Below are positions 17,071 to 52,678 of a stretch of 52,678 nucleotides of DNA, piece by piece; the first letter of the stretch is position 1, and every line of letters starts with the position of its first letter. The translations under genes and the position numbers were made by a program. The stretch is taken from assembly GCA_040755395.1 (NCBI GenBank), contig JBFMAX010000018.1:1-52678 (forward strand). The letters run 5' to 3'. Source of the stretch: Nitrospirota bacterium (GTDB taxonomy: Bacteria > Nitrospirota > Nitrospiria > Nitrospirales > Nitrospiraceae). Under the pieces are notes generated by a model, which was not told the origin of the DNA, searched no databases, and saw nothing but the letters and a program-made list of their open reading frames with translations.

Positions 17071-17822
17071 GTGTACACGTGACGGACGACCGAACCCTTG
17101 GAGAATTGATCGAGCGCCATCGGGCCCTGTACGACGGGCCGGACATCGAGTCCAAATTGAAACACATCATCCGCGACGGCCCCCAATCCAAACTGTCCGA
17201 CTGGGACATCCATCGACTGTTGCGGACCGCCCGCTGCGTGTACTTCGACACGCACGTCGAGATGGTCTCCGGACACCACACCGCGACGTATCTGCGGTTC
17301 GAATCCATCGCGCGCATTCCCCAATTGATCCGGCTGATCGCGCGCGACATGGCGGACTGGGTCAGGCTGACCTTTCAGCGCGACCCGATCACCGGCATCG
17401 TCGCGACGACGTCGGCGGCCGAACTCCTGGCCGAAGGGATCGCCGATATTCTGCACGACAAAATGCGGCTGCGGGTCACCCTGACGCCCTACAACCCGGA
17501 GACCGGCAAGATCGGCACGGAGATCAGGACTGGCGCCATTCGCACGGGGGAGCGGTTCGTCGCCTTGAACGACGTGACGACGCGCGGGAATTGCGTCAGC
17601 AAGCTGGGGAACGTGATCACGGATCACGGCGGCATCCTGGCGGGCATGATGGTCTTCGCGCGGCGGGACAGCGGCCAATTTCCGTTGATGCAGGAACTCG
17701 TGCAGCAGTATCCCTTTTACTACGCGGCCGACCTCGACATGCCGCAGTGGGAGCCGGACCAGTGCCCGCTGTGCCGAGCCCAAAAACCGCTGCTGTCATG
17801 GAAGGAGATGCCCGAATTCTAG
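17067..17822 (+). CDS. phosphoribosyltransferase-like protein in the homogentisate operon
   Basis: A 251-residue protein. A type-I phosphoribosyltransferase PRPP loop is recognisable as FVALNDVTTRGNCVSKLGNV (two acidic positions partly replaced: V-A-L-N-D-V-T-T-R-G in place of V-x-x-x-D-D-x-x-T-x-G), followed by GGILAGMMVFARRD, as in orotate phosphoribosyltransferases. The N-terminal part has VYFDTHVEMVSGHHTATYLRF, where PyrE-like proteins bind substrate. The C-terminus adds a CPLC pair (WEPDQCPLCRAQKPL). The ATG overlaps the fumarylacetoacetase stop. A role in tyrosine catabolism is not obvious. Alternatives: regulator or salvage enzyme co-transcribed by chance. Confidence 0.55.
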   Translation: MSVHVTDDRTLGELIERHRALYDGPDIESKLKHIIRDGPQSKLSDWDIHRLLRTARCVYFDTHVEMVSGHHTATYLRFESIARIPQLIRLIARDMADWVRLTFQRDPITGIVATTSAAELLAEGIADILHDKMRLRVTLTPYNPETGKIGTEIRTGAIRTGERFVALNDVTTRGNCVSKLGNVITDHGGILAGMMVFARRDSGQFPLMQELVQQYPFYYAADLDMPQWEPDQCPLCRAQKPLLSWKEMPEF

Positions 17823-17828
17823 CGAACA

Positions 17829-17999
17829 GCCGGACCGGCGCATTCGATTCGACACGATCATGAAGAGCCGGCGGCTCAAGCGAAGCTTGGTATGATGGAT
17901 CAAGAAATCCCAGTGGGTTGAGGACTCTCTCCGGCGCCGGCTATTCGAGACGACGAAAAAGAGGCGCCGGCTCAAGCGAAGCTTGGTATGGAGGTCATC
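17829..17999 (+). repeat. structured leader repeat, one partial and one full copy
   Basis: The partial copy at about 17829-17897 ends with the terminal hairpin CAAGC-GAA-GCTTG and GGTATGATGG. The full copy (about 17899-17994) has the conserved GTGGGTTGAGGACTCT, main stem CCGGCGCC (17931-17938) with GGCGCCGG (17963-17970), the same CAAGC-GAA-GCTTG hairpin, then GGTATGGAGG. Its GGAGG is the ribosome binding site of the following E1 alpha gene (ATG at 18000). It belongs to the dispersed family also found near 31.2-31.7, 47.85 and 52.4-52.7 kb. Confidence 0.75.
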
Positions 18000-19001
18000 A
18001 TGGATCTCGCCGTGGTCGCGAAGGAGATCAAAAAGGACGATCTGCTCCAGATGTACTACTACCTCCGGTTGACCAGAACGCTGGAGGAACGGATCACGGC
18101 TCTGTACCGACAAGGCCGGATCATGGGCGGGGTCTACACCAGTCACGGGATGGAGGCGATCGCGGTCGGCTATGCCTCCGCCTTGGAACGAGACGACATC
18201 ATCGCACCCTATCACCGGGACATGGGCGCGTTTCTCATCCGCGGCATCACCCCGGGCGAGGTCATCGCCCAGTATTTGGGCAAGCGCACCGGACCGACCA
18301 AGGGAAAGGACGGGAACGTCCACATCGGCGACCTGAAGCGCGGGGTCATCGGGTTCGTCAGCCATCTGGCCGACAACCTGCCGGTGGCGACCGGCGCGGC
18401 GCTGGCGTTCAAAATGCGCGGCGAATCGCGCGTGGTCATCACCAACACGGGCGACGGCGGAACCAGCCGGGGCGATTTTCACGAAGCCCTGAACTTTGCC
18501 TCCGTGCGGAAGCTGCCGGTCGTCTTCTTCTGCAACAACAATCAATACGCCTACTCGACGCCGCTCCATCTTCAGATGGCGATTCGCGACGTGGTCGAGC
18601 GCGCCAAGGCCTATGCCATGCCCGGCGAGATCGTGGACGGCAACGACGTGGCGGAGGTCTACCTGGCCGCCAAGCGCGCGATTCAGCGGGCCAGGTCCGG
18701 CGAGGGGCCGACCTTCATCGAAGCCAAGACGATGCGGATGCACGGGCATTCGGAGCACGATTCGGCCAAGTACGTGCCGCGCGAGTTGTTGGAGGAATGG
18801 AAGAAGAGGGACCCGATCATGAAGGCCGAGCAGATGCTCAAACAGCTCGGTTACGGCGACAAGGCGACCTTGAAGGAAATCGAAGAACGGGTGAAGAAAG
18901 AGGTCGAGGCCGGTGTGGAGTTTGCGGAACAGAGCCCGCTCCCGGAAGGACGGGAAGTGCTGGACGGCGTGTTCGCAACGGAAGATGAGGTGCAGCCATG
19001 A
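18000..19001 (+). CDS. 2-oxoacid (branched-chain) dehydrogenase E1 component, alpha subunit
   Basis: A 333-residue thiamine-diphosphate enzyme subunit. The ThDP motif is GDGGTSRGDFHEALNFASV with NNNQYAYST (G-D-G...N-N). The phosphorylation-loop region is MRMHGHSEHDSAKYVP. Together with E1 beta it decarboxylates a 2-oxoacid and transfers the acyl group to lipoyl-E2. The surrounding leucine/valine genes favour branched-chain substrates over pyruvate. I placed the start at ATG 18000 because GGAGG lies 5 nt before it; an upstream ATG at 17988 is inside the leader repeat. It overlaps E1 beta by 4 bp. Confidence 0.9.
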   Translation: MDLAVVAKEIKKDDLLQMYYYLRLTRTLEERITALYRQGRIMGGVYTSHGMEAIAVGYASALERDDIIAPYHRDMGAFLIRGITPGEVIAQYLGKRTGPTKGKDGNVHIGDLKRGVIGFVSHLADNLPVATGAALAFKMRGESRVVITNTGDGGTSRGDFHEALNFASVRKLPVVFFCNNNQYAYSTPLHLQMAIRDVVERAKAYAMPGEIVDGNDVAEVYLAAKRAIQRARSGEGPTFIEAKTMRMHGHSEHDSAKYVPRELLEEWKKRDPIMKAEQMLKQLGYGDKATLKEIEERVKKEVEAGVEFAEQSPLPEGREVLDGVFATEDEVQP

Positions 19002-20104: not shown

Positions 20105-21271
20105 GTGGCCACCGACATCATCATGCCCCAACTCGGAGAAAGCATCGCCGAGGGAACCATCATTAAATGGATGATCGCGCCCGGCGGCCGGATCGAGAAG
20201 GACCAGCCGTTGTTGGAAGTGGAGACCGACAAGGTCTCGCTCGAAATCCCCTCCCCGGGCACGGGCGTGCTGAGCGAAGTGCTGGTGCAGGCCGGCCAGA
20301 CGGTGCCGATCGGCACGCTGCTCGGGCGGCTGGAAAGCGAACAGCCCTCCGCCGGCGTCATCAACCGCGTCGGCGGCGTGGTCGTCCGTCCGATGGAATC
20401 GCCCGGCGCCGGACCAGATCACTACTCCCCGGCCGTCAGACAACTGGCGAAGGAACACGGCGTAGACCTGTCTCAGGTCCCCGGCACCGGCGCCAGCGGC
20501 CGGGTGACCAAGAAAGATGTTCTGGACTTCGTGGCTCGTCGGACCGCGGACCGCGGACCGCGGACCGCAGAGGCGCCTTCTGCGGGTGAAGAGATCCTGC
20601 CGTTAACCCAGATGCGCAAGACCATCGCCGAGCGGATGGTGAAGAGCAGGCAGACGTCGGCCCATGTGGCCACCTTCTTCGAGGCGGACTTCAGCGCAAT
20701 CGCCAGATTCCGCGAGGCCCTTCACCAGGGCTCAGGGCAGGGCCACTCACTGACCTACGTCCCGTTTGTGATCAACGCGGTCACGCGCGCGATCAAGGTC
20801 TTCCCCATCCTGAACTCGTCGTGGGGGGACCAGGGGATCATCATCAAGAAAGACGTCCATATGGGGATCGCGGTCGCGCTGGAGGACGGGCTGCTGGTGC
20901 CGGTCGTCCGCCATGCGGATCGGAAGGGGCTCCAGCAGTTGGGCCGGGAAGTGGCCGATCTGGCGGAGCGGGCCAGGACCAAGAAACTGAACCCCGAGGA
21001 GGTGCAGGGAGGCACGTTCACGATCACCAATCACGGCGGGTTCGGGAGCCTCTTCAGCACGCCGATCATCAACCAGCCGCAGATTGCCATTCTCGGCGTC
21101 GGGGCGGTGCAGAAACGCGCCGTCGTGATCAACGATGCGATCGCGATCCGGCCCATGTGCTATCTCAGCCTGTCGTTCGACCACCGGGTGATCGACGGCG
21201 CGACGGCCGATCAGTTCATGGCCAAGGTGAAGCAGTACCTCGAACAGAGCGAATGGGAGAAGTTGCTGTGA
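20105..21271 (+). CDS. 2-oxoacid dehydrogenase E2, dihydrolipoyl acyltransferase
   Basis: A 388-residue E2. The lipoyl domain (1-77) carries the lipoylated lysine in ETDKVSLEIPSPG. The peripheral-subunit-binding domain is at about 101-140 (YSPAVRQLAKEHGVDLSQVP, GASGRVTKKDV). The catalytic domain has ITNHGGFGS and the His motif LSFDHRVIDGATADQF. It transfers the acyl group from lipoamide to CoA. The GTG start at 20105 follows GAGGG. The linker between the binding and catalytic domains contains four tandem GGACCGC heptamers (20541-20568). A MITE-like element begins immediately after the stop. Confidence 0.93.
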   Translation: MATDIIMPQLGESIAEGTIIKWMIAPGGRIEKDQPLLEVETDKVSLEIPSPGTGVLSEVLVQAGQTVPIGTLLGRLESEQPSAGVINRVGGVVVRPMESPGAGPDHYSPAVRQLAKEHGVDLSQVPGTGASGRVTKKDVLDFVARRTADRGPRTAEAPSAGEEILPLTQMRKTIAERMVKSRQTSAHVATFFEADFSAIARFREALHQGSGQGHSLTYVPFVINAVTRAIKVFPILNSSWGDQGIIIKKDVHMGIAVALEDGLLVPVVRHADRKGLQQLGREVADLAERARTKKLNPEEVQGGTFTITNHGGFGSLFSTPIINQPQIAILGVGAVQKRAVVINDAIAIRPMCYLSLSFDHRVIDGATADQFMAKVKQYLEQSEWEKLL

Positions 21272-21272
21272 T

Positions 21273-21386
21273 GAACATGCGGGGCCTGTCACCGACCGGC
21301 CGGTCCGTGCTCGCACCCCGCCCGGTGTAGGGACCCCGCTCCGCGCGGACGGGCGCCCAGGTCGGCGCCACCCGCATGTTCGGCAT
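21273..21386. repeat. MITE-like palindromic element, short form (copy A)
   Basis: About 112 bp starting 2 nt after the E2 stop. The ends are inverted repeats: GAACATGCGGGGCCTGTCAC on the left and a matching GCGCCACCCGCATGTTC on the right, containing ACCGACC/GGTCGGCG. It is nearly identical to the reverse complement of the copy at 36756-36869. Confidence 0.8.
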
Positions 21387-25239: not shown

Positions 25240-25444
25240 GCGCAGGTCCTGTCGCCGACCAGCCGGGGACCCGTTGCTGTTTTTCCAATGCAACGGGTGC
25301 ACACTCGCACCCCGCCCACACCCGCCGGGCGGGTACCCGAGGGCCCCCGCTGCGAGGGTACCCATTGCCGGGGCACCCATTGCTTCATCTTGCAATGGGT
25401 CGCGTGCAACGGGTCAGGGGCTCCCAGGTCGGCGCCACCCGCGC
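25240..25444. repeat. MITE-like palindromic element, long form (copy B)
   Basis: Ends GCGCAGGTCCTGTCGCCGAC and GGTCGGCGCCACCCGCGC are inverted repeats. The interior has nested palindromes (ACCCGTTG...CAACGGGT; CCCATTGC...GCAATGGG) and the shared core CTCGCACCCCGCCC. It starts 8 nt after the mutase stop. Confidence 0.75.
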
Positions 25445-31190: not shown

Positions 31191-31290
31191 GATCAAGAAA
31201 CCCAAGCGGGTTGGGGACTCCATCCGTTCGCGTCAGCGACGATAAAGCGATAACGAGCGAGCGGATCAAGCGAAGTTTGGTTTCTGGTAT
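31191..31290 (+). repeat. structured leader repeat (divergent copy)
   Basis: It has the conserved CGGGTTGGGGACTCCATCCG block, a main stem of different sequence (ATCCGTTCGCG pairing with the CGAGCGAGCGGAT side), loop GACGATAAAGCGATAACGA, then CAAGCGAAGTTTGG. The hairpin has a C-to-T change that keeps a G-U pair. A MITE-like element abuts its 3' end, so it leads no gene directly. Confidence 0.7.
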
Positions 31291-31449
31291 GAAAATGCGG
31301 GTCCTGTCACCGACCAGCCGGGTACCCGTTGCTCCTCTCCGGTTGCAACGGGTGCAAGCTCGCACCCCGCCCACACCCGCCGGGCGGGTACCCGAGGGAC
31401 CCCGCTGCGCGAGGACAGGCGCCCAGGTCGGTGCCACCTGCATTTTCAT
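31289..31449. repeat. MITE-like palindromic element, long form (copy C)
   Basis: Terminal inverted repeats ATGAAAATGCGGGTCCTGTC and GGTGCCACCTGCATTTTCAT. The interior shares CCCGTTGC...GCAACGGGTGCAAGCTCGC and ACACCCGCCGGGCGGGTACC with copy B. It is inserted at the 3' end of a structured leader repeat. Confidence 0.8.
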
Positions 31450-31485
31450 GCTCCAGGGTGGCCACTTGGTGGCCATGAATTACTG

Positions 31486-31576
31486 CCAAGAAACACTGGT
31501 GGGTTGAGGACTCTATCCGCCGGCGTCTATGACGATAACGCGATGAAGAGCCGGCGGATCAAGCGAAGCTTGGTTT
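31486..31576 (+). repeat. structured leader repeat, tandem copy 1
   Basis: Nearly identical to the copy 106 bp downstream: CCAAGAAACACTGGTGGGTT, GAGGACTCT, 10-bp stem ATCCGCCGGC/GCCGGCGGAT, CAAGC-GAA-GCTTG. It is followed by GGTTTCTACAAAGG with no gene. Confidence 0.75.
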
Positions 31577-31591
31577 CTACAAAGGCAACGG

Positions 31592-31688
31592 CCAAGAAGC
31601 ACTGGTGGGTTGAGGACTCTATCCGCCGGCGTCTATGACGATAACGCGATGAAGAGCCGGCGGATCAAGCGAAGCTTGGTATGGAGGG
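31592..31688 (+). repeat. structured leader repeat, tandem copy 2, forms the RBS of the TPR lipoprotein
   Basis: Perfect stem ATCCGCCGGC (31621-31630) with GCCGGCGGAT (31656-31665), internal GACGATAACGCGATGAAGA, then CAAGC (31666-31670), GAA, GCTTG (31674-31678), and TATGGAGGG. GGAGG ends 5-6 nt before the ATG at 31693. The whole stretch 31178-31692 is repeats and holds no gene. Confidence 0.78.
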
Positions 31689-31692
31689 CGCC

Positions 31693-32067
31693 ATGGCACG
31701 CTTATCTCTCCTGATCATAGGGGCGGTCGGATTGTTCATTTCGGTCTCGGCTTGCGACTCCGGCAAACCGACGGGCGGGGCGGAGACGGCCCTGATGTCG
31801 CCGGCCGGCTCGGCCGGTCGCGAGGACAACGACGAAGGCGTGGGGCATTTCAGGCAAGGCCACTGGGATGTGGCGGCCGAATGGTTCCAGAAGGCCATCA
31901 AAAAGGACGCCAATCTGGCCGAGGCGCATTTCAATCTGGCGTTGACCCTCGACAAGATGGGCAAACACGACGAAGCGACGGCCGAATTCAAGAAAGCGGC
32001 GGAACTGGCCCCGACCAATGTGGCGATCAAGGACTCGCCGATTCTGAAGAAGCATCTCGGGATGTGA
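31693..32067 (+). CDS. TPR-repeat lipoprotein
   Basis: A 124-residue protein. It has a signal peptide with lipobox FISVSAC (Cys near residue 22), then a Gly/Ser-rich linker and two to three tetratricopeptide helix pairs (GVGHFRQGHWDVAAEWFQKA, LAEAHFNLALTLDKMGKHDE, ATAEFKKAAELAPTN). Probably an outer-membrane or periplasmic scaffold. Its link to the surrounding CoA catabolism is unclear. Translation starts from the Shine-Dalgarno of a structured leader repeat. Confidence 0.8.
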   Translation: MARLSLLIIGAVGLFISVSACDSGKPTGGAETALMSPAGSAGREDNDEGVGHFRQGHWDVAAEWFQKAIKKDANLAEAHFNLALTLDKMGKHDEATAEFKKAAELAPTNVAIKDSPILKKHLGM

Positions 32068-36721: not shown

Positions 36722-36755
36722 CCAGTCGCTATGAATCCTCTTTCAACCCTACGGC

Positions 36756-36869
36756 TTGAAAATGTGGGTGGCACCGACCAGGGTGCCCGTCCGCGCGCAG
36801 CGGGGTCCCCACACCGGGCGGGGTGCGAGCACGGACGGGCTGGTCGGTGACAGGCCCTACATTTTTAAA
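36756..36869. repeat. MITE-like palindromic element, short form (copy D), covers the start of the next gene
   Basis: Ends TTGAAAATGTGGGTGGCACC and GTGACAGGCCCTACATTTTT are inverted repeats. It is nearly identical to the reverse complement of copy A. The only plausible start codons for the acyl-CoA synthetase (GTG 36823 or 36847) lie inside it. Confidence 0.8.
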
Positions 36870-47690: not shown

Positions 47691-47847
47691 TCCCCCCCCC
47701 TCGCCGCCGCACTCGTGCCGATTGTCGCATCCCCTGGGGATTTTCCTCTTCGCTCCTGGGGAGATGACGGGTTTTCTTTTCCCCCTCAGCACGGTATCGG
47801 AAAGGCGCGTCTGCATGGAAAGGGAGAGCAAAGTTACGTGAGGTGTC

Positions 47848-47903
47848 TATCCGGTCGAGCTGATTAAGAGCGCGACCGGTTCAAGCGAAGCTTGGTATGG
47901 AGG
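47848..47903 (+). repeat. structured leader repeat, short copy, forms the RBS of a small zinc protein gene
   Basis: The main stem here is CCGGTCG (47851-47857) with CGACCGG (47873-47879), a shorter loop, then CAAGC-GAA-GCTTG and GTATGGAGG. The ATG follows at 47910. The stem sequence differs from other copies but still pairs. The rest of 47691-47847 shows no gene. Confidence 0.72.
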
Positions 47904-47909
47904 CGGTCC

Positions 47910-48161
47910 ATGACGGCGTTGGTTCCACTGTGTTCGCTGTGCCGGCGCGTCCGGGACGATAACGGAACCGGATTCGGTCAAGGCGAATGGGGCGACGTGC
48001 TGGTCTACATGAAGCGATATCGTCTCGCCCCCGCGGATTTCATTTTTTCCCATACGTACTGTCCCGATTGCTGCGTGTTCTACCGGCAGCTTATGAGCTA
48101 TGGGCGCGGCGATCAGAGTTTCGTCGACCGACCCGCTTACCGCCCGGCGGCCGGCACATGA
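47910..48161 (+). CDS. stand-alone small zinc-binding domain of the kind fused to signalling proteins
   Basis: An 83-residue protein: LCSLCRRVRDDNGTGFGQGE, then WGDVLVYMKRYRLAPADFIF and FSHTYCPDCCVFYR. The pattern C-S-x-C-(K/R)-x-(I/V)-R-D-D ... W ... (F)-S-H-x-x-C-P-D-C is the short C-terminal module found on many PAS kinases and response regulators, and is expected to bind zinc through C-x2-C and C-x2-C. Here it is a free-standing protein just after a kinase/regulator pair. Translation begins from a structured leader repeat. Confidence 0.72.
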   Translation: MTALVPLCSLCRRVRDDNGTGFGQGEWGDVLVYMKRYRLAPADFIFSHTYCPDCCVFYRQLMSYGRGDQSFVDRPAYRPAAGT

Positions 48162-52401: not shown

Positions 52402-52555
52402 GATCAGGAAAAGCAAGTGGGTTGAGGACTCTCTCCGCCGGCGTCAATGACGATAAGGCGAATCAAGCAACGAGAAACCTCCTTGTGGGTTTTATCCGCG
52501 CGCATCAATCTCGATAACACGATGGAGAGCGCGGTTCAACCGAAGGTTGGTATAG
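52402..52555 (+). repeat. structured leader repeats, truncated copy then divergent copy
   Basis: The first copy (52402-52467) keeps AAGTGGGTTGAGGACTCT and the 5' stem arm CCGCCGGC, but ends after GACGATAAGGCG. The second (about 52470-52553) has stem CCGCGC (52496-52501) with GCGCGG (52529-52534) and hairpin CAACC (52537-52541), GAA, GGTTG (52545-52549): a compensatory base-pair change relative to CAAGC/GCTTG. Confidence 0.72.
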
Positions 52556-52678
52556 CCGGCGGCCCGAGCGAAGCTTGGCATATCGCACAGACAACGGCAA
52601 AGAGCGGGTTGAAGACTCTATCCGCCGGCGTCAATGACGATAAAGCGATAAAGAGCCGGCGGCCCGAGCGAAGCTTGG
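52554..52678 (+). repeat. structured leader repeats, partial 3' end then a copy cut by the window edge
   Basis: GCCGGCGGCCCGAGCGAAGC at 52556-52575 is an isolated 3' half. From about 52595 a further copy has GCGGGTTGAAGACTCTATCC, stem CCGCCGGC/GCCGGCGG and GAGCGAAGCTTGG, reaching the last base. No gene follows within the window. Confidence 0.72.

Follow-up and report, generated by a model that had tools for sequence, protein, structure and literature searches.

A repeat of 90-95 nt that is widespread in the Nitrospiraceae is probably a non-autonomous short mobile DNA element, with a folded DNA hairpin (P2 plus P3) that is recognized and inserted beside the motif GGNGG. In kind it is loosely REP/MITE-like. 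We analyzed the element in a 52,678-nucleotide stretch of a Nitrospirota contig (the window), for which a preliminary description had listed at least eight dispersed full or partial copies and had proposed a folded RNA. BLAST and a covariance model bore out the copy count, recovering about nine full or partial copies in the window. The E-values obtained when the element was searched against the window ranged from 9e-49 to 1e-3, which excludes chance similarity of the copies, and further BLAST matches to whole copies or parts of them fell at 17860-17987, 31194-31285, 47862-47896 and 52417-52678.

The element begins with a purine-rich 5′ end, continues with stem P2 (8 bp) and hairpin P3 (5 bp), and closes with GGTWT; its 3′ end reads TGGTAT or TGGTTT, and it has a conserved internal segment, ACGATAAAGCGATAAAGAG. 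Over 149 copies the 5′ end was only loosely purine-rich, and this border was less sharp than the 3′ border; the alternative pairing of CCAAG with CTTGG that had been suggested as a switch was not conserved. Three subfamilies were visible, one of which has a well-defined 5′ end starting at GAATCTAAGCC. Neither the seed alignment nor a comparison of the ends revealed clear terminal inverted repeats. The covariance model, built from a hand-made seed alignment (A1), had 80 positions and included the 8 bp of P2 and the 5 bp of P3. When folded as DNA, both strands of the copy at 31490-31577 folded well (z about -4), as did the copy at 17901, while the copy at 31194 folded no better than shuffled sequences. 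Folded as RNA, the same three copies gave z-scores of -2.6, -1.7 and -1.4, respectively.

All copies in the window lie on the forward strand. A degraded copy at about 17815-17893 (39.6 bits), with its P3 hairpin CAAGC-GAA-GCTTG intact at 17877-17889, precedes a full copy at 17901-17989 (79.7 bits; sequence inspected), and flush against the latter is a Shine-Dalgarno GGAGG (17990-17994) followed by the ATG at 18000 of a 333-aa dehydrogenase E1 component (PF00676). The next array begins with a full copy at 31194-31283 (81.3 bits), after which comes an unrelated MITE-like repeat and then two full copies in tandem, at 31486-31576 (93.5 bits; P2 arms 31517-31524 and 31550-31557, P3 31560-31572) and 31592-31682 (94.3 bits), that are 99% identical over 89 bases. 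The 3′ end of the last copy is flush with the Shine-Dalgarno GGAGG (31683-31687) of an open reading frame that starts with the ATG at 31693-31695 and encodes a 124-aa TPR protein, as judged by TPR Pfam matches. At 47831-47898 is a shorter copy with a short P2 loop (53.2 bits), again flush with GGAGG, here before the ATG at 47910 of an 83-aa open reading frame without a Pfam match. An outer copy at 52403-52581 is split in its P2 loop by another (halves at about 52403-52461 and about 52554-52581, from the sequence and the BLAST pieces); the inner copy, with P3 CAACC-GAA-GGTTG, spans about 52462-52553, its left border being approximate, and scored 75.7 bits at 52476-52553. The final copy, defined by model matches and sequence, occupies 52602-52681 and runs past the end of the window (window part 52602-52678). 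Farther along the contig, two more copies follow a stretch of N, the last of them flush with the GGAGG and ATG of a mechanosensitive-channel-like open reading frame (PF05552).

We extended the covariance-model search to the rest of the genome and to its relatives, a check that the preliminary description had proposed. The genome of origin gave 42 matches at E ≤ 1, and at least one match was found in 129 of the 147 genomes of the same Nitrospirota family, with up to dozens of copies each. In the complete genome of one relative (G011), twenty 20-kb stretches chosen around known copies held 74 copies. When named genomes were scanned for the exact pattern, 44 stretches were returned; all were from Nitrospirota except one contig of an Aquabacterium metagenome-assembled genome, which may be misbinned. 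BLAST sampling of three other families of the same order yielded no element. As had been surmised, the element matches no RNA family in Rfam: the whole window gave no match at gathering scores and nothing relevant to the element at permissive thresholds, and the hits at six related loci were limited to tRNAs and to one c-di-GMP-I riboswitch at a distance from the element. That riboswitch (RF01051, 59.3 bits) lies in G011 at L045:2186-2280, 600-900 bases from element copies.

The stems listed in the preliminary description pair as it stated, and covariation was seen in both P2 and P3 when 113 distinct copies were compared. In these copies 96.5% of the P2 and P3 cells were paired, compared with 75.3% after shuffling and 27-44% after sliding, and 247 double-change cells were observed where 61.4 were expected, although these counts lean towards structure because the alignment was fitted to the model. 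RNA helices accept G-U pairs and reject A-C, while a DNA hairpin or neutral DNA decay treats the two roughly alike, since a G-T on one strand is an A-C on the other. We therefore counted both mismatches. The stem cells of 223 distinct copies contained 45 G-U and 51 A-C; by contrast, the acceptor and T stems of tRNAs from the same loci, used as a control, contained 30 G-U and 1 A-C (Fisher p = 1.4e-7, indicative only, as the copies are related). Arrays on the sense strand before a Shine-Dalgarno had 14 G-U and 13 A-C, and those at tRNA ends had 24 and 29. Changes in the stems were mostly swaps of G-C to C-G (55 G-C, 45 C-G and 8 A-U at one pair) and did not follow the stepwise route from G-C through G-U to A-U. 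The absence of a G-U preference, set against the tRNA control, indicates that pairing is kept at the DNA level, and a riboswitch-like RNA reading of the element is not supported.

The target of the element was directly visible. We compared 140 distinct array termini, and in every class of context GGNGG stood directly after the 3′ end of the element. Forty-five of the termini abutted the CCA at the 3′ end of a tRNA or tmRNA, with the element antisense; 43 abutted a Shine-Dalgarno, with the element sense; and the remaining 52 were of other kinds, tRNA 3′ fragments and GGCGG sites among them. In a few of the Shine-Dalgarno cases the motif is not a genuine ribosome-binding site; at L238, for instance, it is the start of a tRNA-Ser gene that itself begins with GGAGG, which fits a motif-driven target. 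The position was flush: the offset from the element to the tRNA 3′ end was 0 in 30 of 31 cases and +1 in the other, and there were no others within 30 nt. The tRNAs used were those for Ala, Arg, Cys, Glu, Gly, Leu, Lys, Met, Phe, Pro, Ser, Thr and Val, together with tmRNA, and in the genome of origin the element directly followed the CCA in roughly 16 of the 35 tRNAs that we examined with a hairpin rule and by inspection. Ends of tRNA genes seem over-represented as targets, to a degree that GGNGG alone may not explain, and a true preference for them beyond the motif is possible. Genes downstream of the sense copies had no common function, encoding a dehydrogenase E1, ClpX, ZapA, Hsp20, a glutaredoxin, a UDP-glucose dehydrogenase and others. 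Apparently homologous genes for ZapA, ClpX and a glutathione-peroxidase-like protein had an element at the Shine-Dalgarno in different genomes (L083/L044, L181/L159 and L232/L093), which may reflect either ancient copies that were retained or independent insertions at one site. We rejected a role as a tRNA terminator, as no T-run follows the stems in the sense direction of the tRNA, and in G011 the copies showed no lagging-strand bias against GC skew.

Arrays mixed different subfamilies and were polarized, in that the copy nearest the target was usually the best preserved and copies decayed with distance from it. Two sister species, G018 and G062, with flanks about 91% identical, provided the one clean comparison of a filled with a less-filled site. 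Both carry the same older element near a tRNA-Leu, and in G018 an additional element of about 92 nt lies precisely between the older copy and the CCA end of the tRNA, with no target-site duplication at this extra element. We judged which G018 copy was older and which newer from the sequence; automatic alignment split the two copies. Nesting was also seen directly, both in the window and at several G011 loci, where the element-in-element composite recurs. A further pair, G034 (L268) and G073 (L267, G073:C84:8000-20000), was discarded as a clean insertion pair because G073 carries genomic-island-like genes there. The two are 97% identical upstream, including the element, and part exactly at its 3′ end, close to the tmRNA; beyond this point G073 has island-like genes that, judged from sequence, include type I restriction-modification genes.

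These patterns suggest how the element might spread. A trans-acting enzyme would recognize the DNA hairpin, and new copies would insert with the P3-GGTWT end flush against GGNGG and without duplication of the target. The ends of tRNAs and Shine-Dalgarno sequences are presumably under selection, so that such targets would persist and could be reused. Repeated insertion at the same preserved target would push older copies outward, where distal members would decay, and in this way reusable targets would explain the arrays. The copies would probably share no regulatory role.

What speaks for a structured cis-regulatory RNA, a riboswitch or leader acting on the gene whose Shine-Dalgarno follows P3, is the strong covariation of the stems together with the constant position of the element before the Shine-Dalgarno at 43 of the 140 termini. 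We nevertheless consider such an RNA very unlikely. Even the sense copies had no G-U excess (14 versus 13), about a third of the arrays lie antisense at tRNA or tmRNA ends, the downstream genes are unrelated, the arrays are tandem and heterogeneous, and Rfam has no match. The folded RNA and possible switch of the preliminary description are not supported, on the same points, namely the G-U count that does not exceed A-C (45 versus 51), the lack of a shared downstream function and the antisense third; the evidence favors instead the mobile repeat, which that description had allowed for in its caveat that hairpin-forming mobile repeats can co-vary too. An RNA could also be involved through a SINE-like retroelement whose copying into DNA starts at the target from a fixed 3′ end. 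The constant 3′ end, the looser 5′ end and one 5′-truncated copy with an intact 3′ end would suit that route, but reverse transcriptase (PF00078) is absent from the genome of origin and from the copy-rich G003, G018, G019 and G023, one subfamily has a well-defined 5′ end, and the stems lack an RNA signature, which leaves this reading barely credible.

Among DNA-level alternatives, mobilization as a REP-type repeat by a RAYT (REP-associated Y1 tyrosine transposase), either present now or lost from some genomes, is unlikely, even though the repeats are extragenic palindromes in high copy number without target duplication and Y1 genes occur in the genome of origin and some relatives. PF01797 had no match in copy-rich G003, G018 and G023, and the element flanked none of 30 Y1 loci; such absences of an enzyme are strong only when combined, as draft genomes can miss genes. 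The element also has two hairpins over 90-95 nt, where a REP has a single one of 20-40 nt (PMC3733652), and neither a GTAG nor a CGTC tag was seen at the end of its palindrome. We dismissed an IS91/ISCR-type Y2 transposase as the mobilizer, since PF04986 was found in 3 of 41 genomes and only as a fragment within the carrier family. No autonomous form, such as a version with cargo inside P2, and no parent insertion sequence was found; an orphan 3′ half (L170) that seemed a lead to an autonomous form proved to be a 5′-truncated copy with its 3′ end intact. Integrons use folded DNA sites with variable stems, and their polarized arrays grow at a fixed site. The element resembles an attC site in all of these respects and could be imagined as a recombination site that an integron integrase, or another tyrosine integrase, moves in its folded form. 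That is highly improbable, as an integron integrase scored above the cut-off in only 3 of 41 genomes and no matching R-box pair was seen by eye in the sequence. Xer-type recombinases were universal in the genomes examined and so argue neither for nor against an attC-like site. Tyrosine recombinase genes near some tRNA-Val copies were set aside, as by sequence and gene order they look like chromosomal xerC beside trmFO.

Two other repeats were observed near the element. The MITE-like palindromic repeat between two element copies in the window (31284-31485) has inverted ends ATGAAAATGC / GCATTTTCAT with CTG on both sides. A search with 169 of its bases gave 48 matches in the genome of origin, several of them 96-98% identical over the full length, and further, partly deleted copies lie at 21271-21381, 25242-25354 and 36754-36865. 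A second repeat at tRNA ends follows the CCA at L128, L153, L161, L192, L048 and L096; it measures about 100-200 nt and contains a palindrome of the GGGGGCTGGCCCCC type. It ends in a 21-36 nt duplicate of the 3′ end of the same tRNA, and in some cases part of the T arm of the tRNA is found, inverted, in its left portion.

Covariation of the kind described here would pass for a new structured RNA, yet it bears a DNA-level signature, and counting G-U against A-C is a cheap control that could be applied to other covarying repeats. Across this family of nitrifiers the element lies directly against tRNA ends and the signals for translation start, a position from which it can alter a 5′ leader or a tRNA trailer without disrupting the gene. 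With the usual mobilizers absent, the identity of the mobilizing enzyme becomes a well-defined question. The element family, its choice of target and its lack of the usual mobilizers seem to be undescribed in the literature searched; the REP and MITE literature that we covered, mostly outside the subscription journals, did not describe the element.

Bacterial REPs are marked by a palindrome of 20-40 bp with a GTAG or CGTC tag (PMC3733652). The element is like REP, BIME and REPIN sequences in being a short extragenic palindrome with many copies per genome, structure-conserved stems and no target duplication, but it is longer, has two hairpins, shows no GTAG or CGTC tag, is accompanied by no Y1 gene that it flanks or that is consistently present, and has a sharp GGNGG target at tRNA ends and Shine-Dalgarno sequences. 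It shares with bacterial MITEs a short, non-coding, dispersed form and apparent movement in trans; unlike them, it has no clear terminal inverted repeats or target-site duplication, and no parent insertion sequence was found. The element fails those defining features of REPs and MITEs that could be tested, namely size, tag, association with Y1, terminal inverted repeats and target duplication. Elements of the IS200/IS605 type have subterminal DNA hairpins and insert beside a short fixed target without duplicating it. Their non-autonomous derivatives would resemble the element in all three respects, but Y1 is missing from copy-rich genomes, and the G011 copies had no strand bias relative to GC skew. 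The RtT repeats of the E. coli tyrT operon (in Rfam) also follow a tRNA 3′ end and offer a lead only; RtT units carry a copy of the tRNA 3′ end, which the element lacks and the second tRNA-end repeat described above has, and the element has no Rfam match. Like integron attC cassettes, the element is a structure-defined site of variable sequence in arrays that grow next to a fixed point, but most carriers have no integron integrase, and it is the conserved end of the element, not a variable spacer, that adjoins the target. We tentatively raise the possibility that the element represents a new class of short mobile DNA in the Nitrospiraceae, moved in the form of a folded hairpin by an unrecognized recombinase that targets GGNGG, chiefly at tRNA 3′ CCA ends and Shine-Dalgarno sequences, and that might build polarized arrays at these targets in the way that integrons and CRISPR arrays expand at fixed sites of their own.
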